DNA of 61,934 bases from a virus: positions 1 through 61,934 of the IMG/VR virus record IMGVR_UViG_3300037133_000055; one strand, given 5' to 3'. The notes beneath the pieces are model-generated. The model was not told where the DNA came from. It saw nothing but the letters and a program-made list of their open reading frames with translations, and did not search any database. Positions 1-56,822 of the stretch are shown here, one piece after another. How positions within the stretch are numbered: the first letter of the stretch is position 1; the number at the start of each line of letters is the position of its first letter. Made by a program: the position numbers and the translations under genes.

Positions 1-198
1 ACACTTAAACTCATCCTTCTCTAAATCTACTATGACATTTATGATCGGCATTACATCTCTGGGCTTTGTGTTATCTTTATAGTGCATGTCGTACATATGT
101 GCAGATACAAACTGTATCTGCGTTTCCTCTAAGTAGGCATAGGGCGCGAAGCCGCGTTCTTTCATTTTATCCTCTACTATTTGCTTATCTAACAACAA
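1..198 (-). CDS. Hypothetical protein, 3' end outside the window
   Basis: This leftward reading frame is open for 66 codons and runs off the left edge, so the C-terminus is unknown. I start it at a TTG (198) because AGGAG lies six bases upstream; an ATG at 204 is in frame but abuts the ribosome binding site. The product is mixed charged and hydrophobic, with several Met and Tyr residues and no motif I recognise. It follows two tiny genes in the same orientation and probably shares their transcript. It is a real gene by ribosome binding site and composition; its function is unknown. Confidence 0.6.
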   Translation of the reverse strand, partial: MLLDKQIVEDKMKERGFAPYAYLEETQIQFVSAHMYDMHYKDNTKPRDVMPIINVIVDLEKDEFKC

Positions 199-3235: not shown

Positions 3236-3279
3236 AGGCACTATAAAACCCAGGACCTTACGATCCTGGGCTATGGTAG
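3236..3279 (-). terminator. Leftward terminator with conserved flanks
   Basis: CCCAGGA (3249-3255) pairs with TCCTGGG (3264-3270) around an 8-base loop. Read leftward the stem is followed by TTTTATAG. Flanks AGGCACTATAAA (3236-3247) and TGGTAG (3274-3279) are the same as at 2707-2750. It ends the transcript of the gene at 3289. Confidence 0.75.
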
Positions 3280-3854: not shown

Positions 3855-3935
3855 CTACTCTGGGATTAAAGCAATCAGAACACACGCTACAACAAAACAA
3901 AATCCTAACACCTCTGCTAGGTGCAGTATAGCCAT
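3855..3935 (-). CDS. 26-aa single-span membrane peptide
   Basis: Leftward mini-ORF of 26 codons whose product is almost entirely hydrophobic (LGFCFVVACVLIALI), predicting one membrane helix with a very short N-terminal tail. The leader GAGAGGAGGTGATTGAT is the same as that of the gene at 2563, so translation is well supported. Small phage membrane peptides of this type often act on host envelope or lysis timing, but that is only a family-level guess. Confidence 0.6.
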   Translation of the reverse strand: MAILHLAEVLGFCFVVACVLIALIPE

Positions 3936-3970
3936 ATCAATCACCTCCTCTCTATTAATGAATAGACTAT

Positions 3971-4792: not shown

Positions 4793-4822
4793 TCTATAAA
4801 TAAATTTTGGTATAAGTGTAAA
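4793..4822 (-). promoter_or_regulatory. Candidate leftward sigma70-type promoter
   Basis: Read leftward: TTTACA (4822-4817), an 18-bp spacer, then TATAGA (4798-4793). It points into the leftward small-gene cluster through the structured leader. It overlaps the first bases of the rightward 42-nt element, so the two may compete. The prediction rests on sequence resemblance only. Confidence 0.35.
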
Positions 4823-4856
4823 ATGTGTTCTTTTTTGCTGTCCTTTAATAGTAGAG
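4815..4856 (+). promoter_or_regulatory. 42-nt promoter-like element, copy 1
   Basis: The segment starts AGTGTAAAATGTGTTC and ends CTGTCCTTTAATAGTAGAG. A copy of the same length and position relative to a gene lies at 53507-53548 upstream of the lysin. They differ at about five of 42 positions, and the last 19 bases are identical. It lies 30 bases before the first gene of the rightward morphogenesis region. A phage-specific promoter recognised late in infection is the simplest reading. Confidence 0.6.
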
Positions 4857-4885
4857 GGTTAATTAAAAAAGAGGGCGATATCAAC

Positions 4886-5512
4886 ATGATGGAGCTGGTC
4901 GCGACCACTGATCTGTCATCGGCATGGAATGTTAGTCCCCGTGGCAGAAAAGCGTTGGACCGTGCCGTTCAGTTGAGGACACACCAGCAAGCATTCTACT
5001 CGGCTATACCTATTGTATGTAAAGCAGAAGAGTGTCCCTATGCAGAGACATGTCAGCTGCTTGATGAAGACCTCGTTACAGTAGGTGACAAGTGTCCATT
5101 AGAGATAGCTGCTGTTGAACAACTCTTCCAAGCTTACGTAGACGAACTACATGTAGATAACATCATCGACTTATCTTTAGTTAAAGAGCTAGTCGATCTT
5201 GATATAGGAATTTTAAGATGTGAGAATAAGTTGGCTATAGACGCTGACATTATTCAGGAGATCAATTTTGCTATTACCCAGCGAGGGCAACTGATCACAC
5301 AGCCTGCGATTCATAAGGCTGCTGAATATAAGGATAAACTTCTTAATAGAAGACACAGTATATTGCAGCTACTACACTCTACCCGTAAGGACAAAGAAGG
5401 TAGTAAGCTGACTATTAACTATGATCCCTCATCCAGGGCTGCTGAACTTCTTGAAAGAGCTGAAGCTTACAAGAAGGCTAAGGCCATCGACATCGAGGGT
5501 GGTAGTGAATGA
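4886..5512 (+). CDS. Putative terminase-small-subunit-like protein (208 aa)
   Basis: First gene of the rightward set. The frame is open from 4823, but that part is the promoter-like element; GAGGGCG eight bases before the ATG at 4886 sets the start. The protein has two Cys pairs near residues 25-75 (KAEECPYAETC and GDKCPLE), then a long helical region and a basic, Lys-rich tail. Position before the terminase large subunit and helical, DNA-binding-like character suggest the packaging recognition subunit. I recognise no diagnostic motif, so this is mainly context. Confidence 0.4.
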   Translation: MMELVATTDLSSAWNVSPRGRKALDRAVQLRTHQQAFYSAIPIVCKAEECPYAETCQLLDEDLVTVGDKCPLEIAAVEQLFQAYVDELHVDNIIDLSLVKELVDLDIGILRCENKLAIDADIIQEINFAITQRGQLITQPAIHKAAEYKDKLLNRRHSILQLLHSTRKDKEGSKLTINYDPSSRAAELLERAEAYKKAKAIDIEGGSE

Positions 5513-5978: not shown

Positions 5979-6346
5979 TGAGTGCTGCACAGTTTCTCAC
6001 TGGATTTGCTAAGAACAGCGTTCGCTTTTTGAATGAAGCTCGCGGTGTTACTGCAGATGCTATTGACAATACTCACGCAGCAGCTAATGCACTACTTACC
6101 CGAGACAAGAAGTTTCACCATCTCACATTTTCTAGGTTAGGTAAGGGATTATTAGTTGGCGGCCTTGGTATTGGCGCCGTCAGTGAGTTTAATAAAGATA
6201 CAGAAAGAGCTGAGACGGGAACAGTAACACCTGGCTTTAATCCGTACCCAGCTAATACATATGATGGTCAGTCACCACAGTCTCCTTATAGTACAGGAGC
6301 AGATGGTAATCTGGTGTTTGCATTACATAATCTACGACATGGATAA
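5978..6346 (+). CDS. Small hypothetical protein with one hydrophobic Gly-rich segment (122 aa)
   Basis: The start ATG overlaps the stop of the preceding gene (TAATG), showing coupled translation. Residues about 50-62 (GKGLLVGGLGIGAV) are a short Gly-rich hydrophobic segment. The C-terminal half is Pro/Tyr/Asn-rich and probably extended. It shares the design of its neighbours: helical N-terminus, glycine-zipper patch, flexible end. Function unknown. Confidence 0.6.
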   Translation: MSAAQFLTGFAKNSVRFLNEARGVTADAIDNTHAAANALLTRDKKFHHLTFSRLGKGLLVGGLGIGAVSEFNKDTERAETGTVTPGFNPYPANTYDGQSPQSPYSTGADGNLVFALHNLRHG

Positions 6347-6360
6347 GGAGTATACATATA

Positions 6361-6639
6361 ATGGCTAAGTCAGTTGCACCTAACAACAATGGCAATCCTG
6401 GGACCCTCGGTGGATTCAATTTCTCTTCGCCTTCATTCGGTCCTTTCCCTCAGGTAAATACCTTCAAGTCTGCCACTCCTGGCGATCCGAATCAGGTTGC
6501 CAAGAACGCACCAACTCAGGCGCCACTCTGGACTCAACTTCTAACTCCTCCTCAGGCAAACACTGCATCCCTTGCGAAGTCAATGTCTGTACCGGCACTA
6601 AAGATTAGAACAGGCAACCCGGGAGGCCTTGGTCAGTAA
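6361..6639 (+). CDS. Pro/Asn-rich flexible hypothetical protein (92 aa)
   Basis: ATG 6361 follows AAGGAG. The product is poor in secondary-structure formers and rich in Asn, Pro, Gly and Thr (for example NNNGNPGTLGGFNFSSPS), so it is probably extended or a linker-like virion component. It is flanked closely by genes in the same orientation. No family recognised. Confidence 0.55.
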   Translation: MAKSVAPNNNGNPGTLGGFNFSSPSFGPFPQVNTFKSATPGDPNQVAKNAPTQAPLWTQLLTPPQANTASLAKSMSVPALKIRTGNPGGLGQ

Positions 6640-6777
6640 ATGGCGGTTAAGGGTGGAACTAGAGCACAGACGATTCAGCTAACAAAGAATACTACACTGC
6701 AGGTACTGGCTCAGCCAACGCTCGGTAAAGATGCCGCAGCCTGGCTGAGACCTACGGTGATTAAGAAAGGAAAGTAA
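6640..6777 (+). CDS. 45-aa basic hypothetical protein
   Basis: A 45-codon ORF whose ATG follows the TAA of the previous gene directly. The product is basic and begins MAVKGGTRAQTIQLTKN, with a Trp near residue 36 and a Lys-rich end. Tight packing on both sides and normal composition support it. Function unknown. Confidence 0.5.
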   Translation: MAVKGGTRAQTIQLTKNTTLQVLAQPTLGKDAAAWLRPTVIKKGK

Positions 6778-6783
6778 GTAACT

Positions 6784-7221
6784 ATGGCAAATGCAGCCGC
6801 TCCGACTCCTAGTGGATTTTCAAAGCTACGTCACGTATTCCAGAAGTATCAACTGGATAAAGGACTTGGAGCGCTTAGCTTTGGTATAGATTACATGACT
6901 GATCGCAAGCAAGGCAAGAGCGTTATGTCGTCTCTTGCCAGTGCTGGGGTAAGTAATGCTGCATATATACTCTGGCCAGAGTACGGTCTATTGCAGATTG
7001 GCGCTCAGTTTGGAACTATGGGTGCAGCAGCCCTGCTAAACAATGCCAAGGGCAACGAGTACAAGAGGCAGACGATGGCCAACCGCGGGTACATTGGTGG
7101 TGGCTATCAGGACACGCAGGCTAACGCTACGATGCGTCAGGCTGGTATGCAGTCAATAGCTAACTCCTACGCTAATGTAAATACCGCCTTCGGCAACGAA
7201 GCGAGAATGTATTCGGGGTGA
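6784..7221 (+). CDS. Hypothetical protein, possible minor virion component (145 aa)
   Basis: ATG 6784 follows AAAGGAAAG. The protein has an N-terminal charged helix, a central hydrophobic region (residues about 50-85, including EYGLLQIGAQFGTMGAAALL) and a Gln/Asn/Ala-rich C-terminus. This is the same overall plan as the other small genes between 5529 and 7617. No enzymatic motif is visible. Role in the particle is inferred from position next to the terminase. Confidence 0.55.
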   Translation: MANAAAPTPSGFSKLRHVFQKYQLDKGLGALSFGIDYMTDRKQGKSVMSSLASAGVSNAAYILWPEYGLLQIGAQFGTMGAAALLNNAKGNEYKRQTMANRGYIGGGYQDTQANATMRQAGMQSIANSYANVNTAFGNEARMYSG

Positions 7222-7227
7222 TAGGCA

Positions 7228-7617
7228 ATGTCTGACAGATCATTATTTGAAACGGTTGCTGGTTTTTTTAGGAGTGGCGCTAAGGCAGGAAGACGTACTA
7301 TCATGGAAGAAGGAGGAAAGGCAGAAGAAGATCTACAAGCTAAAGCCTTAGGTCACGATCTAAAACAAAGTAGAGACAATAATCTTTTTTCTGGCGAAAC
7401 GAAACCTAATACAAAACGTTCAAGTCTGCCAGGTGGAGAACTTGCGTCAAATATGTCTGTTGGAGATAGATGGAGAAACCTTAGCCCATATGCGAGAGGT
7501 GGAGTTTATCTAGGCGGTGGTGCCTTGGCTACTGCTGGCATTGTTTCTGCATTGCATGGTCGTCAACACAGAACTCCTAATTCAGAACTTTATTCTAATC
7601 CATATGGCGTGATGTAG
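7228..7617 (+). CDS. Small protein with one C-terminal membrane-like segment (129 aa)
   Basis: ATG 7228 lies seven bases after the previous stop, with a GGGGTGAT site. The N-terminal 90 residues are charged and helical. Residues about 92-112 (GGVYLGGGALATAGIVSAL) form a Gly-rich hydrophobic span, followed by a short polar tail. It completes the run of small Gly-rich proteins before the terminase. Function unknown. Confidence 0.6.
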   Translation: MSDRSLFETVAGFFRSGAKAGRRTIMEEGGKAEEDLQAKALGHDLKQSRDNNLFSGETKPNTKRSSLPGGELASNMSVGDRWRNLSPYARGGVYLGGGALATAGIVSALHGRQHRTPNSELYSNPYGVM

Positions 7618-7620
7618 CTT

Positions 7621-9273
7621 ATGTCTCAACTCACAAAAGAGGAAATACAACAGGCTGAGATTTTGGCTGATCCGGTGCAGTGGGCATGGGTCTATCTGAA
7701 CTGGAAAGCTCGGGACTATCAAGAAGAAATCTTGCGTGATGAATACTATAGGCAGGTGTGGCGACTTGGTCGTCGTACTGGTAAGACCGAAGAGATTATT
7801 ATCAAGAGTCTGCACAAAGCTTATACCAAGAAGAGATTCCGTATCATCATTGTTACACCATACGAAAATCAGATCCGAGTTTTCTGGGATCGCTTTGATG
7901 AACTGATCGACGAATCACCAGAACTAAGGGCTTCGATCAAGAGCAAGACCCGCAATCCTTATACAATAAAATTTAAAAATGGTTCCAGGATCACAGGCTT
8001 CACTGCCGGTACCAAAGCTGGTAACGGTGGAGCTAACGTTCGTGGTCAGGGAGCTGACTGGATCTTTCTTGATGAGGCTGACTATCTGTTGCATGACGAT
8101 ATCGTAGCTGTTACCTCAATCGCCATAGAGGCGCCTGAAAGAATTCATATCTTCGTAAGTTCTACTCCTACGGGACGGCACGACTTCTTCTGGAAGATCT
8201 GTACCGACGCCAGGAGTCCATATAAAGAATACCACTTCTCTTCTAAGGTAAACCCCGAGTGGACAGATAAGGCCGACGAAGAGTTTAGGATATTACATAC
8301 AGAGATCGATTATGCTCATGAAATCCTTGCTGAGTTTGGCGAGGAAGCTGCTGGTGTATTTAGACATGAGTATCTAGAACGGGCCAGCAACCAGATCCAT
8401 TATTGTTATCAGGACCTTAACTATGCACAAGAACAGCACATAAAAAACAACGATATAACAGTAATGAGACTTGGACCATATGACGAGTACTACAAACCTC
8501 CTGCAGGCGGTCTGAGGACCATCGGTGTGGACTGGGATAAGGTCCAAGCGACACCTCAGATTGTTGTGACAGAGTACGTGAAAGAACTGAACAAGTTCCA
8601 GGTAATCTATCACGAGGATATTCCTCAATCGGAGTTCACGCTAGACAAGGCCGTGCAGACTATCATCTCTCTCAATAGTCTCTATCATCCTGACTGGATC
8701 TATTGCGACAGAGGGATGGGCGAGTATCAAGTAGAGATGTTACATGCATATGGAATACAGCATCCTGAGTCCGGTTTAGAGAACAAAGTCAAAGGTTGGG
8801 CGTTTAATCAGAATGTTGAGATAGTGGATCCCGCAACCAGAGAGCTTGTAGCCAAGCCATTAAAACACTTCATGGTTAATAACGGCGTCTGGTTATTTGA
8901 AAGAGACCGTATCTTACTATCAGCTTATGATGAGATGCTTTACTATCAGCTTATGAATTACTCTGTTGTCAGAAAATCTGTGAGTGGTGCTCCTATTTAC
9001 ACGTCACATGACGAGCATGCACTGGACGCCTTCATGCTTTCTCTGGCAGCCTTCGCTATAGAATTCCCTGAGATCACGAACACTATTCAGAATCCTGATA
9101 ATAGTGCTCATCTTCTAAATCTTCCCTCCCCTGCTAAAGCAACTGCTAAGGCGGTATTCCCCGACACCTATAGGAATAGTGGTCGTAACCGTCGTATTGA
9201 TTGCAGGACATCGACCTGGGGTACGCGTGGTGCTACTACAGGTTCCTCTCCAGTCCGCAGGAAATTTTTTTAA
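7621..9273 (+). CDS. terL: Terminase large subunit
   Basis: The ATP-driven motor and nuclease that packages phage DNA into the prohead. The ATPase half shows a Walker A motif GRRTGKT (residues 50-56) and Walker B IFLDEAD with D151/E152; the TPTG at about 180 fits the coupling motif. The nuclease half has an RNase H-like set: D304 in GVDWD, D363 in YCDRG and D469 in EHALDAF. The length, 550 aa, is normal. The last 40 residues are basic and unusual. It starts three bases after the preceding gene, with a weak ribosome binding site. Confidence 0.93.
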   Translation: MSQLTKEEIQQAEILADPVQWAWVYLNWKARDYQEEILRDEYYRQVWRLGRRTGKTEEIIIKSLHKAYTKKRFRIIIVTPYENQIRVFWDRFDELIDESPELRASIKSKTRNPYTIKFKNGSRITGFTAGTKAGNGGANVRGQGADWIFLDEADYLLHDDIVAVTSIAIEAPERIHIFVSSTPTGRHDFFWKICTDARSPYKEYHFSSKVNPEWTDKADEEFRILHTEIDYAHEILAEFGEEAAGVFRHEYLERASNQIHYCYQDLNYAQEQHIKNNDITVMRLGPYDEYYKPPAGGLRTIGVDWDKVQATPQIVVTEYVKELNKFQVIYHEDIPQSEFTLDKAVQTIISLNSLYHPDWIYCDRGMGEYQVEMLHAYGIQHPESGLENKVKGWAFNQNVEIVDPATRELVAKPLKHFMVNNGVWLFERDRILLSAYDEMLYYQLMNYSVVRKSVSGAPIYTSHDEHALDAFMLSLAAFAIEFPEITNTIQNPDNSAHLLNLPSPAKATAKAVFPDTYRNSGRNRRIDCRTSTWGTRGATTGSSPVRRKFF

Positions 9274-9330
9274 TAGGTATCGACGGACCGTTTTTGGTCT
9301 TGTTAATACAGTCGTGTTCCTCCTCTCTCT

Positions 9331-9374
9331 TGTTCGGCTGGTCGGCACACCCCCTCCTACTTGCCAGCCGAACA
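9331..9374 (+). other. Strong hairpin between terminase and the next gene
   Basis: TGTTCGGCTGG (9331-9341) pairs perfectly with CCAGCCGAACA (9364-9374) around a 22-base pyrimidine-rich loop. The gap 9274-9408 also holds a smaller GACC/GGTC hairpin. Only a weak T-rich stretch follows, so it may be a partial terminator or a translation-control element for the next gene, whose AGGAGG site begins 20 bases later. Confidence 0.5.
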
Positions 9375-9408
9375 CCTTTATTCTAGATTCTGCTAGGAGG
9401 GAACAACT

Positions 9409-10323
9409 ATAAATCTTGATTATTCACCAAATATACAGTTCACTCTACCCCCTGCTACTGCAGGTGCCACAACCACGGCTACTACTACGGCAGCCAACGG
9501 TACAGTAACAACGACCACTTCTGGATCACAGTACTCCACTGTCATATCCCAGACTAACTCATATTCTTTGAGTAATACAATTAATCAGATAACTACTCTT
9601 CAGGCAAGTAATAACCTGTCAGGAGAATACTATAACGATGTCAACTCTGCTCTGGCTAATAGCCTGAGTATATTGAATGCGCAGTATGCTTATATAGGTA
9701 ATGACAATAGCGCATGGGCATCAGCCTTGCAGACATGGCAGACTCTCGATCAGACTGCAAGTGCTCAACAAGAATTAATACCATGGATCGCTCAGGTATA
9801 TCCTGATGAATATCCAGAATATACGGATGCAGTTATAAGTTATAACGGATTGCAACAGGACAGTGACAGCGCGCTACTTACCTTCCAGAATCTTAGTCAG
9901 ATAAACTTTTCTGTAGCTGATATGGTTAATGTACAGATGAGTTTTATTGAAGGACTAACCAACGTACTATCTGCTTCTATTATGACATCTGATGTTGATA
10001 GTTACATTACCGGTGCCTTAGCTGCATATCAACAGGCAAAGCTTGCGCCTGGTATTGCCAAGAACACATTGGTATATCGTATGACTAATGCAGCAAGACA
10101 AACAAAGCTCAGTAACTCATTACTGATTGCACAGCAGAGAATGCTCAGCCTTACTCCAACTATACGTTTGCAATTGACAAACGCAGATCAGGCAGCTGGA
10201 GTAACTACCCTTCAAGATCTCGCCGATGGTATCGACAAAGATTATTCTACGAAACTACTTGATCTATATAAGACTTACTCCATATATACGAATACTCTTG
10301 GGACATTGATTCAATCAGGCTAG
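9409..10323 (+). CDS. Hypothetical helical virion-type protein (304 aa), apparent ATA start
   Basis: The frame has a stop at 9394-9396 and a strong AGGAGG at 9395-9400. The first ATG/GTG/TTG-type codon (TTG 9568) is 159 bases further and has no ribosome binding site. The codon at ideal distance is ATA (9409). The first 50 residues read as a Thr/Ser-rich segment consistent with coding. The rest is helical and Gln/Ser/Asn-rich. It lies between terminase and a metallophosphoesterase. Function unknown; the start is inferred. Confidence 0.65.
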   Translation: MNLDYSPNIQFTLPPATAGATTTATTTAANGTVTTTTSGSQYSTVISQTNSYSLSNTINQITTLQASNNLSGEYYNDVNSALANSLSILNAQYAYIGNDNSAWASALQTWQTLDQTASAQQELIPWIAQVYPDEYPEYTDAVISYNGLQQDSDSALLTFQNLSQINFSVADMVNVQMSFIEGLTNVLSASIMTSDVDSYITGALAAYQQAKLAPGIAKNTLVYRMTNAARQTKLSNSLLIAQQRMLSLTPTIRLQLTNADQAAGVTTLQDLADGIDKDYSTKLLDLYKTYSIYTNTLGTLIQSG

Positions 10324-10334
10324 GGGGAACTTAT

Positions 10335-11177
10335 ATCGCTAAGGTAGATATCGACCTTGAAAAGATACTAGAGGATCTTGGTATTGGGGCAAAGCAAGAT
10401 AACGGAACAATCGAAAAGAAGATCTGGTTGCACGACTATTCTGATTTGCCAAGCATGCAGCTCGTACCTCTTGCAGATTGGCATGATGGTAGCTGTGGTA
10501 CCAATCATACATTTATAAATAGTCTTGTGACCTACTGCTTAGCCAACGAGGATTGCTATGCCGTTGGCGTGGGTGATCTAGCGGAGAATGCTACAAGGAC
10601 TTCTGTTGGTGCTGGATTCTTTGAAGAGAATGTCCACATCCAGGATCAGATGGACAACCTATATGAACTGCTTGCGCCACTGGCTGCCACTGGTAGGTTA
10701 TGGGGATTAGAAGAAGGTAACCACTGCTTCCGAACAACAGCGTTACTTGGTCTACATCCAATGAAGATTGTAGCTGATAGATTAGGAGTTCCTTTCCTTG
10801 GATACACTTCCTACCATTTAGTTAAGGTTGGTATGCAGCAGTATCGTGTCTTCGTTGGACATAATGCAGGCGGTGGTGGCCGCACCATGGCTGCCAAATC
10901 CAGGGCTGCAGAAAACCCCAAGGATGTTGCTGACTGTGACATTTACATAACTGGTCATACCCATTTTCTTGGTCACCATAGAGCAACGCATTTTGAATTT
11001 GATGAAGACAATCTGGTTATGCGTGAACGTATGCGTTACTTTGTGTCATGCGGATCTGCGCTTAACTACTTTAATAGTTATGCAGAGATGTCAATCTTAC
11101 CACCGTTATCTATTGGTGCTCCACTTATGGTATTCAAAGGTGGTCCGCAATGGGGCATTCGCATCATAGATGATTGA
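10335..11177 (+). CDS. Calcineurin-like metallophosphoesterase (280 aa)
   Basis: Shows the ordered metal-binding motifs of the family: D48-W-H50, GD with D81, GNH with N129/H130, a GHN near residue 178 and GHTH with H208/H210. These bind two metals and hydrolyse phosphoesters. Substrate is unknown; nucleic acid ends are plausible for a gene between terminase and portal. The start is unusual: GGGGG lies seven bases before ATC (10335), and the first TTG in frame (10428) has no ribosome binding site and would remove 31 coding-like residues. Confidence 0.85.
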   Translation: MAKVDIDLEKILEDLGIGAKQDNGTIEKKIWLHDYSDLPSMQLVPLADWHDGSCGTNHTFINSLVTYCLANEDCYAVGVGDLAENATRTSVGAGFFEENVHIQDQMDNLYELLAPLAATGRLWGLEEGNHCFRTTALLGLHPMKIVADRLGVPFLGYTSYHLVKVGMQQYRVFVGHNAGGGGRTMAAKSRAAENPKDVADCDIYITGHTHFLGHHRATHFEFDEDNLVMRERMRYFVSCGSALNYFNSYAEMSILPPLSIGAPLMVFKGGPQWGIRIIDD

Positions 11178-11196
11178 GGACTAGCGAGGTTGTTAT

Positions 11197-13191
11197 ATGA
11201 GTTGGATAGGAGACATTCTGCGCCGTAGACGGCCAATAGGCGAAGCTGTTCAAGACATTGTGCAGTTCATTGCAAAGTCTGTCAACAAGGGCAAGCCTAC
11301 TATAGTAACGACAGCACGTAATGCTTTCAGTTCAAGCTCCGTCATCAACTTCAAAGAGGTAGATGATGCCTACAAGAACGATGCTTACATAAGACGAGCT
11401 GTTGATAAATACGTTCACCTACTCTTTAAAGAAGGCTGGAACATGGTCGGCAAGAAAGACCAGGCAGTCAACTACATTAAGAGTCGTTTCGATTTGATGG
11501 CAGCTGTCACCAATGTACCTACTGATGTATTCATGGTCAACATTGCTCATGACCTTGTGGAGTTTCACAATGTATTCCTGGTCAAAGCAAGGGTCAAAGG
11601 TGGCTTTACTTATAGCGGAGTCAAGGCTCAATCTACCAATCCGAGAGGACCAGTCGGTGCATACTTCAGAGTTGTACCTGATGAGATCACTCCACAGTAT
11701 GATGAACGTGGAGATATCAAGTCTTATAGACAGAGCGTAGGTACTACGAATAGAGAATTCAAGCCTGAAGATGTTATTCACATTTACATGAACAAACTTC
11801 CCAACGAGTTCTACGCCACACCGAATGTCTCATGCATGTTAGATGATGCTAAATTACTTCGGCAGATCGAAGACAACGTGGGGATGATGATATATCGTCA
11901 CCTGTTTCCATTATTGCAATATACAGTAGGCAACGGAACCCCAGGTAGCGGTGCTTCACAACCTGAGATTGAAACACTCAGGACTGAAATCATGAACATG
12001 CCGGACGACGGCGCCTTTGTCACGACAGACCGCGTGAAGATTAATGCGATCAAGTTAAGTGTCATCAACGCCGAGGCTTACCTGAAGTACTTCGAGAACC
12101 GTGTGTTTACCGGCCTTGGAGTATCTCAGGTAGCCATGGGCCGGGGTGACACAGCATCTCGTGCAACTGCCGAGAGTATCATCTTCGATATGTATGATCA
12201 GATCAAAGCCTATCAGAAAGTTATGCTTGCCTTCGTAAACCAAGGCATGATTACCGAGTTGCTGCAAGAGGGTGGCTATCAACCCTTGACCAGCCCTGAA
12301 TATAAAGTAGAGATGCTTTTCAATGAGATCGATGTGGACTCTTTAATTAAACGCCAGAACCACGAAGTATTTAAGTTTGTTTCTAATCTGCAGACCTGGG
12401 AAGAGACCAGGAAGAGTCTGAATATGGAAGCAAGTGCTGATGAAAAACGCTTGTACTTCAACCTCGTGACAATACCTGTAGCTGCTGCAAATGCCGCTGC
12501 CTACAATGATGACTATACTGCTAATGCAGCCAACCGTACTGAGCCCAAGAACCAACACAGTCAATCAATGCATGAGATGTCTGGGCTTCAGATTAAGTTG
12601 GAGACACCGTCCTTTAGTCAGTTTGTCACTGAAGACTATCGAAGACTACAACACGATGTGTTGGGATTACTTTCTGATGGACGTACATACGACAAGAGCC
12701 AACATGAGATCAATGGCTTGACAGCTCTGACCTTTCAAATTATTACCAATAGACTTGTCAAAGAAGCCATGAGATCGTATCAGCAAGGAAGCGAACAAGC
12801 AATTGCAGATTATAATCAGGCGCCTCTAGGGACGCATGCTCTACCTACCGCCATGAGCACGCGTGTCTATCTATATATGCATAACCTACAGAACGATGTA
12901 AAGAACATGATTGAGAAGGCTGCCAGCAAAGAACAAGTAGTTAGTATCTTCGACAGTACACTCTATCGTTTACGATCTACTGTCTCTGATACAATACCTC
13001 GTGCTTACAATGTTGGTTATGCAATGGTAGCTCGCTCCCTCGGAGTAAAGACTCTTACAGCTGTATCTGCTGGCGATTCCTGTAAGGGTTGCGAGAGTCA
13101 CGATGTTAGCCTGGAAGATCTGGACATCATGTCAGTCCCTCCATGGCATCATTATTGTGGCTGTTTTCTTAAAGCCAAAGGAAGTGATTAG
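11197..13191 (+). CDS. Portal protein with fused MuF-type C-terminal domain (664 aa)
   Basis: By position and length this is the dodecameric portal at the packaging vertex. The N-terminal 420 residues have portal-like alternating helical and beta segments. The C-terminus from about residue 590 has the head-morphogenesis (MuF/gp7-type) pattern: a helix with RAYNVGYAM, then C629/C632 in SCKGC, and PPWHHYCGC (C654/C656). In many phages this domain is a separate gene after the portal; here it is fused. Start ATG 11197 has GAGG upstream. Confidence 0.8.
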   Translation: MSWIGDILRRRRPIGEAVQDIVQFIAKSVNKGKPTIVTTARNAFSSSSVINFKEVDDAYKNDAYIRRAVDKYVHLLFKEGWNMVGKKDQAVNYIKSRFDLMAAVTNVPTDVFMVNIAHDLVEFHNVFLVKARVKGGFTYSGVKAQSTNPRGPVGAYFRVVPDEITPQYDERGDIKSYRQSVGTTNREFKPEDVIHIYMNKLPNEFYATPNVSCMLDDAKLLRQIEDNVGMMIYRHLFPLLQYTVGNGTPGSGASQPEIETLRTEIMNMPDDGAFVTTDRVKINAIKLSVINAEAYLKYFENRVFTGLGVSQVAMGRGDTASRATAESIIFDMYDQIKAYQKVMLAFVNQGMITELLQEGGYQPLTSPEYKVEMLFNEIDVDSLIKRQNHEVFKFVSNLQTWEETRKSLNMEASADEKRLYFNLVTIPVAAANAAAYNDDYTANAANRTEPKNQHSQSMHEMSGLQIKLETPSFSQFVTEDYRRLQHDVLGLLSDGRTYDKSQHEINGLTALTFQIITNRLVKEAMRSYQQGSEQAIADYNQAPLGTHALPTAMSTRVYLYMHNLQNDVKNMIEKAASKEQVVSIFDSTLYRLRSTVSDTIPRAYNVGYAMVARSLGVKTLTAVSAGDSCKGCESHDVSLEDLDIMSVPPWHHYCGCFLKAKGSD

Positions 13192-13196
13192 CTGAA

Positions 13197-14564
13197 TTGA
13201 AGAAGTATCCCAGTGTACAAGTAGACCAGTTTAGATTAGAGAACCTCTTGCCGACTGGATGGCAGGTTCAGGAAGCAGATGGCAGTAAGAAGAACCTGAT
13301 CTGCGATATTGAGGCTATTCATGCCTGCACTACCGGCAATTTCAATACCTATACTACCGAAGAACTTCGTAAAGCACTGCCTACCTGGACGAGTCCTTAT
13401 CATAAACCAATCTTGACTCATCACAATACCCGCGACGGAGAGCCAATCGGCAGGATACTTGATGCCAGAATGGGCTATTCGGAACAGGCCAAGCAAGATT
13501 GCGTGGTAATAAGAGTTGAAATCTCAGACGCTGAGTCCATGCAGAAGGTTAAGGACGGCCGCTACATTACAGTCTCGATTGGAAGTAGAACATCAAAGGC
13601 TATCTGTTCTATCTGTGGACAGGACATCATAGCTGAAGGCTACTGTGACCACGAGGCCGGGGAAGTTTACAACGGTAAACAGTGCACAGTATTACTCAAA
13701 GGCATTACTCATAATGAAGCTTCTTTTGTCAATGTCCCTGCCGATAACAACGCACAGGTAGTCGGCATTGTCAGTGAAGGTTATTTGTTTGGAAGTGACA
13801 GTCTGGTCAGCTTGTCTGATCCAGGCACTAATTTGTTAGAGCACCAGGGCGGTATGCAAATAATGGAGGCTCTAGGCATCAAGGAGGTTGAACAGTTGCA
13901 CGTTTTGCAAGAAGCGCATGATACATTACACACCCAGTTCACTGCAGGACCAAGCGATGCATTGCGTGATGCCCATGCCGAGATTGTACGGCAGATGCTT
14001 GGCGCCACGATTGAACATGCGATGACAGACGCTCTCGACGAAACACTGCCAGAGGATTTGCGTCCAGTTATTGAAAATGCTCCACTTGATTTTGGTAAGT
14101 TCGCTGAACTCTTGGCTCAGTCTGGGCGCGACCTGGAAGCTGTCAATGTAAGTCTGGCTGCTGTAACTCTAGAACGAGATGCGGCTAAGACTGAGGCAGA
14201 GAAGCTGACCTTAGAGAATGAGACTCTTCAGGCCACTGTCACACAGTTAGGTGAACAGCTGGTTACGGTAGAGACGGAAGTCCGCCAGGTATTGGCCGAA
14301 CAACTGGTTGAGTTGGCATTGCCGGCACCAGAAGACCATGCTGTTGCCGTAGGAGAGTTTGTTGTAAAGTCAAAAGATGTTCTTCGGGAATTGCTGACAG
14401 AGTCTCGTAAGCAATTCAAAGAGCTGTATGTTGTTAAAGATCCTACTCTTTCTAATGAGGATCTGCCGGACACTTCTGAAGCAACGGCAACAGCTATGCG
14501 GGTAGAGGCGTTCTCTGGTTTATTTAGAGGACCATCCCGTGCAATAACAAAGGAGGTTAAATAG
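13197..14564 (+). CDS. Putative prohead protease with scaffold-like C-terminus (455 aa)
   Basis: Starts at TTG 13197, five bases after the portal gene. Residues 40-190 resemble a head-maturation protease: an N-terminal PILTHHN/GRILDAR stretch, a strand with ISIGSRT-like sequence, and KGITHNEASFVNVPA, where a His followed by Ser and a VPA end is typical of phage prohead proteases. A Cys4-type insertion (CSICG...CDHE...C) is embedded. From residue 300 on it is a Glu/Gln/Leu-rich coiled coil, as expected of a scaffold. Catalytic residues are not confirmed. Confidence 0.5.
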   Translation: MKKYPSVQVDQFRLENLLPTGWQVQEADGSKKNLICDIEAIHACTTGNFNTYTTEELRKALPTWTSPYHKPILTHHNTRDGEPIGRILDARMGYSEQAKQDCVVIRVEISDAESMQKVKDGRYITVSIGSRTSKAICSICGQDIIAEGYCDHEAGEVYNGKQCTVLLKGITHNEASFVNVPADNNAQVVGIVSEGYLFGSDSLVSLSDPGTNLLEHQGGMQIMEALGIKEVEQLHVLQEAHDTLHTQFTAGPSDALRDAHAEIVRQMLGATIEHAMTDALDETLPEDLRPVIENAPLDFGKFAELLAQSGRDLEAVNVSLAAVTLERDAAKTEAEKLTLENETLQATVTQLGEQLVTVETEVRQVLAEQLVELALPAPEDHAVAVGEFVVKSKDVLRELLTESRKQFKELYVVKDPTLSNEDLPDTSEATATAMRVEAFSGLFRGPSRAITKEVK

Positions 14565-14565
14565 T

Positions 14566-16026
14566 TTGAGCATGATCGATTATGGCGTTAGTGGACAGTC
14601 GATTTTCTCACCGGAAGGCAACGGCCTTATCGGCGGTTATCAGGCCGTCCCCTCCACGCCGCAAGATATTAAGCGGACACAGACCAGGCTAGTCCTGAGC
14701 GAAAATTGGAGAGCAGCCGAGAAGTGGTTGCTTGATCCGAGACTTCCAGATTTGTTCCAGTATCAGTTTGGCGGCCCATGGTGGGTAGTGATTCCGAAGG
14801 GCAGAATCCTCGGAGTAGCCACCAATGGTGGACCGAACAACGATGGTCTGATGAATGGCTACATTTCTCGGTTGCTGTTCAACGCATTGACCTTCGCAAA
14901 CGGCGGCGTGAGTATTACCGGCGAGACCGATAATACTAGTACCTCTACACCTCCGGGTACCTATACCCGTACAGCCAATCGTCCTGTGGGCGTGGCTGCG
15001 AACAACATCATCGAGCAGCGTCCCGATGACATGGCTGATATTCTGCCAGATGTGTTGCCTCGTGGTTCTTACATCGAGCTGCCTCTGATTGATAGCCAGG
15101 CCAATGCAGAACAGATTCAATGGGGTTCAGCATATGGAGTACTGCACGGCGGCGACTTGCTCATGTCCGATGCTTATGGACGTTTCGTTGAGTGGCAGGA
15201 ATATCCTACACTGACTCAGACTATCAACGTAACCTCTTCTGCTGGCGGCGTCGCCACAGTGAACGTTGATCAGCCGATCAAGAACTACGTACCGCTCGGT
15301 CAGACCTACCCTGTGACCGTTTCGGTAGTGAATCATGTGGCTCAGACCATCGTTTCTGGCGCTGAGATTACTGGCGTTGCTTGTGCTGCTGGCGCTGTCA
15401 CTTTGGCAGACCTTGGCACCAGCGCTAATGTAGACGTAACCGTGACCTATGTCACTGCCATTGGTCAGAACTATGACCAGGTAATTGGCCAGGTCTGTGC
15501 GATTGATCCGAACCTTCCACCCGAAGGATGGCTGCGTTGGGTTGAGTGGTCGATGCAACAGAAGATGCAGTCATGGGAATACATCTCTTGGGGCTATCGT
15601 CCTGAAGACATCTCCACCGGATATCCGTATTCTAACCGGTTCCAGGGTCGTATCCTTGGTGACTTACCTGGCCTTGGTATCCCTGGGCTGACCAATGGTT
15701 CTAACATTGAAGTAGCCTATACCAATGTCAAGGTTGGAGTTATTCCGGCCAACCTGCCTGCTGGTTCAATGTTCGATGTATACCTGCCGAACAAGCCGCT
15801 GGTAACGTCTACTCTTTCGCTTACCGTTGGAACGACTGCTATTACCGGCACTAACCTGGTCTTCACTGACCCAGTTTCCGGTTTGGTGCGATTCACTACT
15901 GCTGATCAGTCTGCAGTTGATCGCCCGATCCTGGCAAGCTATAGTGCAACAGGACAGATTCCCGGCGTGCCTACTAACATCGACTTTGTCGGTGCTGTCG
16001 GTGCAGTTCGGATAATGTTGATCTAA
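14566..16026 (+). CDS. Virion structural protein, head decoration candidate (486 aa)
   Basis: Starts at TTG 14566 with AAAGGAGG upstream. It lies between the protease/scaffold candidate and the major capsid gene. The sequence is Gly/Thr/Val-rich and largely beta, with no transmembrane or enzymatic motif. The middle (residues about 215-300) is a Val/Thr-rich Ig-like stretch. A head-stabilising or decoration protein fits the location. No family recognised. Confidence 0.5.
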   Translation: MSMIDYGVSGQSIFSPEGNGLIGGYQAVPSTPQDIKRTQTRLVLSENWRAAEKWLLDPRLPDLFQYQFGGPWWVVIPKGRILGVATNGGPNNDGLMNGYISRLLFNALTFANGGVSITGETDNTSTSTPPGTYTRTANRPVGVAANNIIEQRPDDMADILPDVLPRGSYIELPLIDSQANAEQIQWGSAYGVLHGGDLLMSDAYGRFVEWQEYPTLTQTINVTSSAGGVATVNVDQPIKNYVPLGQTYPVTVSVVNHVAQTIVSGAEITGVACAAGAVTLADLGTSANVDVTVTYVTAIGQNYDQVIGQVCAIDPNLPPEGWLRWVEWSMQQKMQSWEYISWGYRPEDISTGYPYSNRFQGRILGDLPGLGIPGLTNGSNIEVAYTNVKVGVIPANLPAGSMFDVYLPNKPLVTSTLSLTVGTTAITGTNLVFTDPVSGLVRFTTADQSAVDRPILASYSATGQIPGVPTNIDFVGAVGAVRIMLI

Positions 16027-16052
16027 CGTTACGCAAAGGAGGAAATCAAGAG

Positions 16053-17135
16053 TTGGCTTACACAATTGAAGAAAGAGCTAAGGCAATGCTCAGTCATTCT
16101 ACTGATATGAAGCCGGACGACATGGTAACAATCAAGGAAGTACTGAGCACTGCTGATGCAAGTATATTAGTACCGCAAGTAATCGTAGGTGTAATGCGTG
16201 AAGCAGCTGAGCCGATCTATATCGGCTCCAAGCTTCTGCAGCGTATCGACATCCAAGGCCCTGGCCGTATCGTGACGATTCCTGTCATGGGCGAGATTAG
16301 GGCTCATGATGTAGCAGAGGAAGGTCCGTATACCGAGGAGAGTCTGGACTTCGGACTCCAGACTGCACATGGTGCCATTAAGGTTGGCAAGACTGGTCTT
16401 AAGGTCAGCCTGACTGACGAGATGGTTGAAGAGTCACAGTGGGATGTTGTAGGCATCATGTTGCGTAAGGCTGGCCGTGCAATGGCCAGACTCAAAGAAG
16501 AGAAAATCTTTGAGATGTTTGGTCGTCAGGGACACCCCCTGTATGATAACTCTATCATCAATGAATATCCCCAGGCACAGACTACTGGCCGGGATTTCTA
16601 TGGTCAGTATAACAACACTCTTTCGACACTGGACTTTGTCGAGATGGTGCTGGCTGTAATGATGAGTGGTTTCGTTCCGACAGACGTACTCATGCCTACC
16701 TTGGCCTGGCTGGTCTTTGCGAAGAACGAATTGCTTGGGCAGCTGCCTTTCGGCGCTCTCGGCGGGACCCCGGGCCAGATTCAGATCAGCCCGAACTCTG
16801 TACAGGGTAGAGTCCCGATGCCTCTTGAAGTAAACCTTTCACCGTTTATCCGCTTCGACAGAACCAACATGCTGTACGATATGTATGTTTTGGATCGTAA
16901 CGAGGTTGGTCTGATGGTTGTAAAGGAAGACATCTCCGTTGAGAAGTGGGCAGACCTTGAACGTGACATCCAGAACATCAAGGTTAAAGAACGTTATGGA
17001 TGCGGTATGTTAAATAACGGCATGGGAGTAGCAGTTGCGAAGAACCTAGCGTTCCAACTCAGCTACGAGTTGCCTCATCGTCTTATCACCATGGATGCTG
17101 CCAACGTGTCTCCTGCACCAAGCAACGCCTGGTAA
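16053..17135 (+). CDS. Major capsid protein, HK97 fold
   Basis: Forms the icosahedral shell. The 360-aa protein starts with a short helical arm and continues with the HK97-fold order: a long beta segment (GRIVTIPVMGEIRAHDVAEE), a spine helix around residues 135-165 (MLRKAGRAMARLKEEKIF), a peripheral domain with a P-loop-like LMPTLAWLVFAKN, and a C-terminal strand. Start TTG 16053 follows GGAGG. It is followed by a hairpin terminator, which fits a highly expressed gene. No long N-terminal scaffold region is present. Confidence 0.8.
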   Translation: MAYTIEERAKAMLSHSTDMKPDDMVTIKEVLSTADASILVPQVIVGVMREAAEPIYIGSKLLQRIDIQGPGRIVTIPVMGEIRAHDVAEEGPYTEESLDFGLQTAHGAIKVGKTGLKVSLTDEMVEESQWDVVGIMLRKAGRAMARLKEEKIFEMFGRQGHPLYDNSIINEYPQAQTTGRDFYGQYNNTLSTLDFVEMVLAVMMSGFVPTDVLMPTLAWLVFAKNELLGQLPFGALGGTPGQIQISPNSVQGRVPMPLEVNLSPFIRFDRTNMLYDMYVLDRNEVGLMVVKEDISVEKWADLERDIQNIKVKERYGCGMLNNGMGVAVAKNLAFQLSYELPHRLITMDAANVSPAPSNAW

Positions 17136-17159
17136 ATCGTTTCACAGTAAAGAAGATGG

Positions 17160-17182
17160 AGGAGGGGTTAAACGCCCCTCCT
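17160..17182 (+). terminator. Hairpin after the major capsid gene
   Basis: AGGAGGGG (17160-17167) pairs with CCCCTCCT (17175-17182) around TTAAACG, followed by ATCATTCTTATT. It is a probable partial terminator that would raise capsid transcript over downstream connector genes. Confidence 0.6.
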
Positions 17183-17210
17183 ATCATTCTTATTATCCCG
17201 AGGTGCAACA

Positions 17211-17996
17211 TTGGAAGCTCCTTATGTAATGCTCACATCGCCTAATAATGGAGATACAGATATCGAGCCTACTGCTCCGATCAAGGTATGGTTTAACCAT
17301 GACCTAAATCCCGGGACAGTTACAGCAGCTACATTAATGCTGTTCGATATTACAAACAGTGTTGTTGTATCTGGAACAGTAGAGTATTCACAGAAGGTAA
17401 TGACCTTCATACCTAACCAACCACTTAGTCTATCAACTCAATACCAGATAGTTATAATTGGTGGCGACGTAGGCATCAAGGATGTTTTTGGCTCAACTAT
17501 GATGCAGAACTATCAGGTTGTGTTCTTTACAGCAGGATCGACGCTAGTGGCAACACCATTGATAACTATACCGGCTGACCGTACTTTGATTAGCCAACCT
17601 TTCACAGTTGCCTGGACTGGCAGCCAAGCTCCATACGATGTACAGATTGCACTTGATGCAGCGTTCCAGAGTATCTACTGGCCGGTATCTGGCGATGATC
17701 TATCGGTGGTGCAGGCTTCAGAAGACGGCGGAAGTTTAATACCAGGACGTACATTTGCAGACGGATTCTATTATGTCAGAGTACGCTCCGAAGGTGGGGC
17801 ATGGTCTGGTACGATTGGATTTGCCGTAAGTGCTCTTTTACCATCTACGCCAATTGGGCCTCTTAATCTTGTAGTGGCTTCACCTTCACCATTTGCGGCC
17901 AACCAGGATGTGACTCAGTTACAGCTCACGTTTGATAGACCTATCAATGCTCTCAGCGCTAACACTGGAGTTTATATAGTACAGGTACCACTTTAA
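17211..17996 (+). CDS. Ig-like (Big_5/SbsA-type) virion protein (261 aa)
   Basis: Starts at TTG 17211 after GAGGTG. Residues 1-105 match a bacterial Ig-like domain of the Big_5 type (TSPNNGDTDIEP, then IKVWFNHDLNP, ending in YQVVFFTAG). A different beta domain follows. Residues about 220-261 begin a second Big_5-type domain (ASPSPFAANQDV, LQLTFDRPIN) but the protein stops before its last strands, which seem to be encoded by the next gene. Located between capsid and connector genes, so a neck or head-surface role is likely. Confidence 0.65.
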   Translation: MEAPYVMLTSPNNGDTDIEPTAPIKVWFNHDLNPGTVTAATLMLFDITNSVVVSGTVEYSQKVMTFIPNQPLSLSTQYQIVIIGGDVGIKDVFGSTMMQNYQVVFFTAGSTLVATPLITIPADRTLISQPFTVAWTGSQAPYDVQIALDAAFQSIYWPVSGDDLSVVQASEDGGSLIPGRTFADGFYYVRVRSEGGAWSGTIGFAVSALLPSTPIGPLNLVVASPSPFAANQDVTQLQLTFDRPINALSANTGVYIVQVPL

Positions 17997-32141: not shown

Positions 32142-35100
32142 ATGGCAAACAGATATAACAAAGATAGACATCCAGATGAGTTAGGCAATCTCGACAAAGC
32201 TGCTCTCGCTTTTGTTCCTGAACGTAGCGTACAGACAGGGCAAAAGAATGTGCTTGTATCCAATATCAGAAAAACACTTGACCGTCATGTCTGGCGGCAA
32301 CAACATCCTCTCGTTACTAACTATGGATATGGTCCTTATATGAATACCAATATGCCATTGAATAGTATCACTGGTAACGCAGCAGTAGATCCTGAGGCGA
32401 TGTTGTCATCGGTAAGATCATCAGGGTTAACAGTACCTATATCTAAGCCTTTAACAAGAACAGAAAAAGCCGATCTCCAGGTACTTTGGAAACACCTGCT
32501 AGACACTGAAGAACTCAATCTTAATGTAGCCAATAGATCTCAGATAGTTAGCACCCTTGATGGATTCAATCTAGCCGGTGCCGGTCATGAGGATGTTGAT
32601 ATACATGACGGTATACGCAAGAGAACTACTCTGGGTGAACATATATATGACTTACTTGACAACAACGGGTACTTCAAGAAGAAACAGGATACCGTTGATA
32701 CGATGTCTCGTGGCGAGATAGCCGGTTACTTCAAAGACTTCCCTCTACTTGGTAAAATTCAGAGCGTACAGAATAGATTGTTTATGAACACAGGTGTTAA
32801 GTCCATGAGGGCCGGAGACTTGAACTCTGCTCTTAATGCATTGAAGAAAGCCGTAATCGGTGGACCATCTAACATAAGTGATGCAACACTCAAAGATCAT
32901 ATCAACAATTTTAATATGTATATAGATCCATTTAATAAAGAAATGATGAAGTATAGCAAGACTCTGACTGATGGAACTGACAGACAGAGCATTCCTTTTT
33001 TGTCAGATGGAGCTAGCTTTGAAGATCTGAAAGCGGCATTGCAGAATCTGAAGCTGTATAAGACTGTAAAGAGTAGGCATCTTCCCACTCAGGCAGAGAA
33101 GACAGAACAACTTTTCAGGATATCAAGAAAGCTCACCGAGAGACTTTATAACAAGCTGAGTACCCCAGCCTATGCATCACTGCTTAAAGTCATAGCTCCG
33201 CAAGGTCTTGATAAATATGATGGTATGGTTGGCGTCAAGAATCTTACCACTAATAATATAAACAGCGATGCACGGCACGGAGACATAGACTCTGGATTAG
33301 ATTTTGAAGAACGTTTCAATTCTAACCTCACAGATCCTTTTAGTAGTGCGACCAACGCTTTCAAGATACAGCCACATGGAGTGGAATTATTCAAGCAGAT
33401 ATTCAAACATGACGTTAGAAAAGGCGAAGCCAATGGCGATGTGTTTGGTATACCTAGTGGCGAGAGTTCAGCAAGGTGGATGTATGCATATAAGAACAAC
33501 AGATATAGTCCAGATCCCGAAGAGAGTGTTAGAGGCGTAGGTATTCACAGCATGGATGGCGCCAAGGCTCTTGAAGAGTTGGCGTCACATGGTCAGAACA
33601 TAGACCGATTCATCATGGAACGTGAATACGAAAAGAACATGCGTAACATTCCCAAGGAGATGCGAGGTAGTTCTTATAGAGGCCGTCTCAATGATGTGGC
33701 ATCTAGAGCAAGAAAATCAATGAGTGCAGAGGAAATGCAGTCGTGGATTGGTCGTGTCGTCTTTGATAAAGTTGACAACATGCCTTCTAAAATTATTGGT
33801 ACGGTTGGCGACAAATTTCAGATCAAACCTCTCTATGCCAATCTATCTCGTGTCAATGTTAAATATAATGCCAAGACTTTTCAAGAATACTTTAATAGTA
33901 ACATAGCGTCTGGCGTAAGCTCATCTATAAGTAAAGGCTATGACGATCCACTTGACAATGGAGTAATAGCAAGCGGCAAGATCTCTGATAAGGTCAAAGC
34001 TCTTTCTAACGAACTGCTAAGCGGCGACTGGTCATCTCATGATGCAATGTTCGGACAACAGTTACCAATGGTTAACCGTTATCTGAAGAGTTCAGCATAC
34101 ATGAATCAAATTGGTGGGCGTGCAGGCAAAGAGATAATGCAAGAAACCGCTCAGGATGTTTCAGAGTTGATGGTCGAGTTCTCTCATAAGTGGTTGCATG
34201 AACGTCCTGACATTGAAGACATTGGCAAGATGGGATGGAAAGACAAGAAAGCCATAAGCGATGAGTTTGAGAAAGACTTCCAGAGGATGGCGCCTGGGGC
34301 ATTATTAAAAAGAGAGCAACTAAGTAAGGCTGATAGATTCGCTCGTGCGTTCGGAGCTATTAAAACGGTAGATAAAAATGCTACGTCTGTAGCTGATATT
34401 GAAAGAGTGATAGCTAACTTCAGGGATATTCCGCGGCATAGAAGTGCTGTTGGTGTTTTGATGGGGCTTAATGGTAGCGACAGAGACGAACTTGCTGCTA
34501 TGTTGTACAGAGGCAATCTAGGATCTATCGACGCAATAAGCGAAAATGGCGAAGGTCACGAACGTGATAGTCATGGCGATATAGCTAGTTCTGCTTTCGA
34601 TCAGCCAGAAAATGCATTCATAAGAAAAGAGACTGAAGCTGAGAACTACTATCGGATGGAGTATCATGACTGGGTGACTCCTGAAGGATGGAAAAAGTTT
34701 AACAGAATAAAGGATAAGCATGATGAACTCCTCCAGGGAGCCAGCAGTCGTGGCGAGTCGCTTATCAATATAGCAAAACTCAAAAGATCGAAGAATGTAA
34801 CATCAACAATGCTTGCGAAAGTGAATGAAGAACAGGCTCGAATCAGAAAGATTAATGCAGTACAAAGAAGTTTAGCTGATCAGATAGAGATGTCTAAGTA
34901 TCTGTCTGAATCAATGTTACCTGCGAAGGTCAAAAGTGCCCAGGAGTTAGCGCTAATAGCTGATACACTGATGCATAATCCAGGACTTGGCAGTATCAGT
35001 TACACCAGGCATGGTATTGATGAAGACATGTCTATCGCCAGTATTGGTAATGGCATCGTATCTCTACGAGATACTAACGGTAAGATGATACATCTTGGTC

Positions 35101-45077: not shown

Positions 45078-45734
45078 TCACATAAGGTATCCATTATACA
45101 CAATGTATGTTCTGGTGTAGTCAATAAACCATTCATCTTGATCGTAGCACAAAATATTTCCAGATGTGTCACGAAGCAATACAGCATATGAAGATGCATT
45201 GCCTACCGCTCCTCTATCATTTCTAAATGCAAAAGAGATAGTCGATCCATCATGCACTGGAATCGCACGTACACCAGAATTAAATCCACTAATATACTCG
45301 GGCGTACCGCTTTGCAGTGTTTGAAAATTAGCTCCACCTTCTTGATCGCCATTCCCATAATCTTTTGGGGAAGAAAGCTCAGATACTCCGTCCACGCTCG
45401 CAGAGAGATTACTTTCTTCTACGGCATTAGGAGCATTATACAAAATATCTATAGTATATTTTACGTTAGTATTTGCGACTATAGTTTGCGGAGTCGACGG
45501 AGTCATCGCAACTTCCTGCAAAGATTCGCCATCCATACCTTGACCGTTTGGAAGGTATTGAACTGAATATCTAGGATTTATAGAAGGCCAAGGACTACTG
45601 GCTTGAGTTTGTGGAACATTCACAACTAGCGTGTGGTTATCTGTACTAGCCTGGGAGGAACACCCTGCCATTACAATTGATAATATTAACACTGTTGCAC
45701 AACTTGCAATCGATATCCATAATTTTACTTTCAT
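45078..45734 (-). CDS. Antisense lipoprotein, moron-like (218 aa)
   Basis: The only leftward gene inside the morphogenesis region. The N-terminus is a lipoprotein signal: MKVKLW, a hydrophobic core, then VMAGC with Cys at residue 24 and a Ser-rich linker. The mature part is beta-rich and polar with no catalytic motif. It has its own sigma70-like promoter and GGGGG/AGG ribosome binding site. Such isolated, self-transcribed genes are typical morons. A surface role in superinfection exclusion is a guess from this pattern. Confidence 0.75.
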   Translation of the reverse strand: MKVKLWISIASCATVLILSIVMAGCSSQASTDNHTLVVNVPQTQASSPWPSINPRYSVQYLPNGQGMDGESLQEVAMTPSTPQTIVANTNVKYTIDILYNAPNAVEESNLSASVDGVSELSSPKDYGNGDQEGGANFQTLQSGTPEYISGFNSGVRAIPVHDGSTISFAFRNDRGAVGNASSYAVLLRDTSGNILCYDQDEWFIDYTRTYIVYNGYLM

Positions 45735-45759
45735 CCTATCTACCCCCTTTGTTTCCCCA

Positions 45760-45787
45760 AGTTTAACATCGAGAGATTATTTGTCAA
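45760..45787 (-). promoter_or_regulatory. Sigma70-type promoter of the lipoprotein gene
   Basis: Read leftward: TTGACA (45787-45782), 16-bp spacer, TAAACT (45765-45760). The -35 is consensus; the -10 matches four of six. The start codon is 26 bases beyond the -10. Confidence 0.6.
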
Positions 45788-52710: not shown

Positions 52711-53508
52711 ATGATTACTTCTTATATGGGCTATAACGATCTGATGACGGATGCTCTGACAAGTTTACAGAACACCGGACTTCCTATCTATGCAGGCAGC
52801 ATTGCCAGTTCTCTTATTGAAGTGCAAAATCAATTCCTGGCCACCTACTATAATACCCTCGATTTCAATCTAACGATGGCGTATGTATCAACCGCTTCTG
52901 GTTCGTTTCTGGATCTGATCGGAACTCTTGTAAATTGCAAGAGGCAATCTCTTGAGTCAGATACCGACTTCCAGTATCGTATCGTTCACCAGACAGATAC
53001 GCTGGCTGCGGCCAATCTTACCTCATTAAGAATTCAGATACTCAGTGTGTCTGGAGTTCGCGATGTTATCATGCAGCGGTTCACTGCCGGTTCAGGTAGC
53101 TTTAGTATAGTGGTAATACCAGTTGTTGCAGGCGCAGTAAGCACAGACTTACTTGCCTCAGTGCAAGCTGTCATAGACGCACAGGAGGGATATGGTATCA
53201 ATGGACAGGCTCTATATGCAACCATGGTACCAGTTGATATCTCTATTCAACTAACTCTGAATGGTAACTCCAATGCAACGTCAGTAGCAGGTCTCGTGCA
53301 GCAGGCTGTATGGAACTACATAGCGAACTTGGATGCAGGTGATACTCTTGTCTATAACACTATCATTCAGACAATCATGAATGCGAGTACCAGCATCAGC
53401 AACTGTAGTATAAATTCTTTTGATGTAGGAGAATTGCCTGTACCCCTACAGGACCAACAGTCTGCGTGGTATGAAGTATTTTATCCAGAAAGTATTTCTG
53501 TATCGTAG
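52711..53508 (+). CDS. Baseplate assembly protein, gpJ-like (265 aa)
   Basis: ATG after AAGGAG. Typical gpJ/gp6-type features: TASGSFLDLIGTLVNCKRQ near residue 70, a LRIQILSVSGVRDVIMQ strand-helix, SIVVIPVVAG and an AVQAVIDAQ-like helix, then a beta C-terminus. It forms the wedge ring that triggers sheath contraction. A promoter-like element starts at its stop codon. Confidence 0.75.
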   Translation: MITSYMGYNDLMTDALTSLQNTGLPIYAGSIASSLIEVQNQFLATYYNTLDFNLTMAYVSTASGSFLDLIGTLVNCKRQSLESDTDFQYRIVHQTDTLAAANLTSLRIQILSVSGVRDVIMQRFTAGSGSFSIVVIPVVAGAVSTDLLASVQAVIDAQEGYGINGQALYATMVPVDISIQLTLNGNSNATSVAGLVQQAVWNYIANLDAGDTLVYNTIIQTIMNASTSISNCSINSFDVGELPVPLQDQQSAWYEVFYPESISVS

Positions 53509-53548: not shown

Positions 53549-53572
53549 AGATAAATATCGAAGGAGATTTCT

Positions 53573-54370: not shown

Positions 54371-54385
54371 TGGAGGTCAAAATAG

Positions 54386-55129: not shown

Positions 55130-55141
55130 GGAGGAATATCT

Positions 55142-56809: not shown

Positions 56810-56822
56810 AAGGTGGACAATA

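Follow-up and report, generated by a model that had tools for sequence, protein, structure and literature searches.

A repeated 42-nt element ahead of the morphogenesis genes and an adhesin cassette of a contractile-tail phage is a candidate late promoter

The window analyzed here is a whole virus record of 61,934 bases, about 94% of which is coding according to a mechanical gene call. Genes for a terminase, portal, major head protein, and tail sheath were recognized, identifying the source as a contractile-tail phage. The terminase large subunit gene (7621-9273, plus strand) has a PHROG match. Past the head and tail genes, the window encodes three proteins of ~2,000 residues, followed by baseplate and adhesin-like genes. 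The closest named relative is Moorella phage MTATph1 (OR602862.1, 176.6 kb). Gene order is largely common to the two phages, and protein identity is 56% for the terminase and 42% for the sheath. Relatives of the terminase are encoded at 80 IMG/VR loci. Many of these loci lie on contigs of 180-230 kb, so the window probably represents about one third of the phage genome. We looked for closer relatives of the window phage and found none besides a 9.9-kb contig (L007) that is 99.94% identical to window positions 7331-17254 and spans neither copy of the element described below.

A 42-nt element occurs twice on the plus strand of the window, with 48.7 kb between the copies. Copy 1 (AGTGTAAAATGTGTTCTTTTTTGCTGTCCTTTAATAGTAGAG, 4815-4856) is non-coding and lies at the change from leftward genes to the entire rightward block. 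It stops 29 nt short of the ATG at 4886, which starts the first rightward gene (4886-5512, plus strand). This gene codes for a 208-aa four-cysteine protein with 61% identity to its MTATph1 ortholog, and the predicted model of its fold (pLDDT 78) had no PDB match. Copy 2 (AGTGTAAAAAGTGTACTTTTTGACTGTCCTTTAATAGTAGAG, 53507-53548) is non-coding apart from its first two bases, which complete the stop codon of a baseplate-J-like gene (52711-53508, plus strand; Pfam Baseplate_J, E 7.7e-13). The 64-nt gap that holds copy 2 is the most AT-rich gap in the rightward block. From the end of copy 2 it is 24 nt to the ATG at 53573, where a four-gene cassette begins (53573-57245, plus strand; in order, an unknown, a tail-like, an Ig-like, and another unknown protein). 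None of the four cassette genes has an MTATph1 ortholog. The genes flanking the cassette on both sides do have orthologs there, and synteny breaks at copy 2. An initial reading made from the sequence alone had placed the whole rightward morphogenesis region after the first copy and a lysin and adhesins after the second. The morphogenesis block is as described, and the term adhesins fits the Ig-like and structural matches 3' of copy 2, but Pfam and PHROGs gave no confirmation of the lysin (53573-54370).

The two copies align without gaps at the coordinates given in the sequence-only reading, with identity at 38 of 42 positions. That reading had counted about five differences; there are four, with T/A at element positions 10 and 15, T/G at 22, and G/A at 23. 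It had correctly described the final 19 bases (CTGTCCTTTAATAGTAGAG) as the same in both copies. Weaker similarity extends to 51 nt (44/51, E 1.9e-9 by self-blast) and ends on both sides; the weakly conserved extensions lie at 4857-4865 for copy 1 (6/9 identical) and 53549-53557 for copy 2, both on the plus strand. At up to three mismatches, the 19-mer occurs twice in the window, compared to 0.01 occurrences expected from dinucleotide shuffles, and the first 21 nt of the element have two matches with 0.00 expected. The scan for further copies that had been proposed as a check found no third copy at up to three mismatches in the 62-kb record, and both known copies lie outside coding sequence. 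Shorter pieces of the element occur elsewhere in the window at a frequency about or little above chance. Weaker candidate copies were rejected as barely above chance, and one of them (AATAGTAGAG at 172-181, minus strand) falls in a reading frame. Exact 18-mer matches in two IMG/VR contigs (L003 and L004) represent the same locus on unrelated contigs and were taken as chance.

We also rejected a coding origin for the repeat. The frame that is open from 4823 in copy 1 is interrupted by stops in copy 2, which indicates that the element is non-coding. With ~94% of the window coding, chance is unlikely to have placed both copies in non-coding DNA in front of a start codon. Other repeats are present in the window. 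Two terminator-like hairpins between leftward genes (2707-2750 and 3236-3279) have different stems and shared flanks (AGGCACTATAAA ... GGTAG). An identical 23-nt ribosome-binding and start region lies ahead of two leftward reading frames (2676-2698 and 3932-3954), and five copies of a short direct repeat of about 18-20 nt (TTGATTGTGCAAAAGAGA) are found at 787-929.

The placement of the element directly ahead of morphogenesis genes is that expected of a phage-sigma-dependent late promoter. Such a promoter would also recur before several late units, and two copies are seen in this partial genome. A simple scan for sigma-A promoters (TTGACA-like and TATAAT-like hexamers, 16-18 nt apart) found none overlapping either copy. 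With only two copies, the functional core of the element is inseparable from background, so its extent is not readable from conservation. For a pair of copies, a contiguous conserved block in place of separate -35 and -10 elements could equally reflect a fairly recent duplication with an undiverged spacer. A leftward lipoprotein-like gene inside the rightward block (45078-45734, minus strand) has its own sigma-A-like promoter (TTGACA-16-TAAACT at 45787-45760), and the region it occupies (45078-45760, minus strand) looks like a moron-like insertion.

Sigma factors are encoded widely among the relatives. A Sigma70 region-4 search gave matches in 13 of 22 relative records, including MTATph1 CDS0074, which matches Sigma70_r4 and the PHROG 'RNA polymerase sigma factor'. 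We built a family profile from eight of the relatives' proteins, and this profile matches FliA-type sigma factors across regions 2 to 4. It detected a divergent sigma homolog in 18 of 23 relative records, a count that includes the eight used to build it. MTATph1 and all records longer than 140 kb are among the 18, and the five records that lack the homolog are fragments of 70-136 kb. A phage sigma looks like a core gene of this lineage, and the window phage presumably carries its sigma gene in the unsequenced part of its genome. The contiguous block had been taken to suggest a phage-encoded RNA polymerase or a sigma/activator. Proteins of such kind do occur in the lineage, and the copies lack a sigma-A promoter, which lends this idea partial and indirect support. 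However, neither a sigma gene nor a giant RNA-polymerase-like gene was found in the 62-kb window, and the element was not found in the relatives.

We see about an even chance that the two copies are late promoters used by the host core polymerase with a phage sigma. Late in infection, host core RNA polymerase carrying the phage-encoded sigma would bind the element. Transcripts would begin at the invariant 3' part (TTTAATAGTAGAG) or just 3' of it and so have a short 5' leader. From copy 1, transcription would proceed rightward across the packaging, head, and tail block, and at copy 2, 48.7 kb farther on, polymerase would enter a second time to transcribe the adhesin cassette. This late-promoter reading, for which we infer sigma binding to the element, the site of transcription start, and the late timing, is the most economical one. 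It accounts for the position, orientation, and AT-richness of the copies, for the missing sigma-A boxes, and for a duplicate that precedes a cassette without counterpart in MTATph1. The reading leaves unexplained why no relative shares the element sequence. Rapid turnover of late control sites is one possibility, suggested by a clade of relatives that has a leader RNA at the same site.

We compared the element to the corresponding site in the relatives and did not find it in MTATph1 or the others. For MTATph1 and 19 further relatives, homology with the DNA 5' of the first late gene was rejected as not significant over 40 tests, the sole low p (L014) falling in the U-run of a terminator. In 14 relatives, the sequence 5' of the four-cysteine gene contains an invariant GTANAAT box, and the leader RNA comes no more than about 10 nt after it; one gene intervenes before the four-cysteine gene in two of these records. 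The RNA is terminator-shaped, with a long covarying outer stem of 8-9 bp, an inner stem, a loop with ACACCGAUUGGG, and a U-rich tail (L062:6249-6331, L014:6096-6180, L037:7563-7641, L016:7180-7262, L018:7446-7529, and nine more). Across the 14 sequences, 17 of 23 pairs show pairing-preserving changes on both sides, though the alignment follows a model derived from five of its sequences, which biases the counts towards the structure. None of 500 shuffles reaches any of five measures, and slid versions are far worse. The RNA is present in one copy per genome, the single weak extra match being its own reverse strand, and the two examples tested had no Rfam match at threshold. It may represent an RNA family not described before, with a gating role in late transcription. 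A role for GTAMAAT as a general late promoter in the relatives was rejected, its intergenic enrichment not being clear.

The leader RNA is absent from MTATph1 and from the window. Ahead of the MTATph1 late block lies a hairpin-rich sequence of ~240 nt (L011:22870-23110; MTATph1 172870-173110), which folds no better than shuffles (z -0.69) and has no Rfam match. The annotated start of MTATph1 CDS0247 looks over-extended.

The sharpest rival to the late-promoter reading assigns the invariant 19 nt to the transcript. The -10 would be GTAAAAT at the 5' end of copy 1, transcription would start a few bases on, and the 19 nt would lie early in the transcript as the site of an antitermination, processing, or translation factor. 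This box marks the 5' limit of the similarity between the copies, which extends downstream only, and the 14 relatives have their invariant box and covarying RNA before the same gene. We nevertheless consider this fairly unlikely. The box reads GTAAAAA in copy 2, where its final T is missing. A shared hairpin was rejected since the two copies fold differently. The leader RNA models (R1 and R2), run against the window with filters off, gave a best E of 2.3 with no match at the element, and the relatives' promoter profile did not match it either. The likeness between leader RNA and element consists of position and the string GTAAAAT in copy 1 only. A scheme that we judge decidedly doubtful holds that the late block is launched from a dedicated control site swapped between lineages, consisting of a unique promoter and terminator-shaped leader RNA in one clade and of a duplicated 42-nt promoter/leader with a transcript-acting 19 nt in the window phage. 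The leader RNA would then be an RNA-based late switch, a barrier to be passed before late genes are expressed, and the 19 nt would serve the same purpose.

Transcription could also depend on an activator. A phage protein bound to GTGTAAAANGTGTNC, a 9-bp direct repeat of GTGT, would bring the host polymerase with sigma-A to a weak -10 located in the 3' part of the element. Both copies contain GTGT at this spacing, weak -10-like hexamers such as AATAGT are present in the 3' part, and the relatives have a different operator-like palindrome at their early genes. Still, no candidate activator was found, the sigma-A hexamer pair is missing, and 19 identical nt exceed the needs of a -10, all of which makes such a site decidedly unlikely. 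The palindrome of the relatives is 14 bp long (TGTAATGCATTACA) and has many intergenic copies in G003, G009, G013, G017, and G024 (L150-L202), often just 3' of TATAAT-like boxes and ahead of early or middle genes. These copies look like an operator regulon.

The location of copy 2 at the MTATph1 synteny break, next to cassette genes without orthologs there, would suit a non-functional or recombination repeat, either a module border that was duplicated or a leftover from insertion of the cassette. We regard this as very unlikely given that both copies have the same orientation and stand at a nearly equal short distance from a start codon, and a duplicated promoter at a cassette border would remain a promoter.

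Some relatives encode a giant polymerase-like protein. Ten records code for a protein of ~2,260-2,350 residues with conserved R-[YF]-P ... D-x-D-G-D motifs in the same order as in cellular beta-prime, and a sequence search added two contigs (L287 and L289), for about 12 relatives. All 50 PDB matches listed for a 1,140-residue model (pLDDT 73) are RNA polymerase chains, nearly all of them beta-prime or equivalents; the best has an E of 1e-5, whole-model TM-scores are low, and Pfam support is weak. The genes (L284-L295, about 6001-7600 and flanks, and L122-L131) lie ~40 kb 3' of the leader RNA, and one member has a weak exonuclease-like match in its N-terminal part. A 1,884-aa protein of the window (32142-37796) has an exonuclease-like match and lacks D-x-D-G-D, and its last 47 residues are weakly like the giant C-terminus (..DNT..W..). 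Neither the window nor MTATph1, the closest relative with a complete genome, gave a match to the giant protein, which makes it an unlikely partner for the element. The relatives also gave no match to a T7-type polymerase, in a weak search whose control was silent too. Phage-encoded RNA polymerases include those of P23-45 and the giant polymerases of crAss-like phages (PMC10770324). The element resembles the promoters of T7-type, P23-45, and crAss-like polymerases in being a continuous conserved block. We regard a promoter for a phage-encoded RNA polymerase as highly improbable.

In some other phages, late genes are started from phage-specific promoters. Late transcription in Bacillus phage SPO1 uses the factors gp28 and gp33/34. 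T4 late promoters consist of TATAAATA, function with gp55, gp33, and gp45, and are present in many copies. A late promoter specific to a phage sigma would be common to T4 and the window phage; the T4-type box, however, is absent from both copies of the element, and there are two copies here compared to many in T4. The late promoters of Staphylococcus phage K lack -35 elements and show no sigma-A pattern, and they are described by the authors as poorly understood (PMC11598898). The element is similar to the promoters of large Firmicutes myophages (phage K and SPO1), which stand ahead of morphogenesis genes, are not sigma-A-like, and have known or suspected phage sigmas. It differs from them in being a 42-nt block with two known copies and no defined -10 or -35.

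Little is known about late-gene switching in large phages that belong to neither the T4 nor the phiKZ group. Should this lineage's sigma turn out to target the element, a new sigma-promoter pair would become definable. Two features of the relatives, their leader RNA and the giant polymerase-like protein, may merit more attention than the element.
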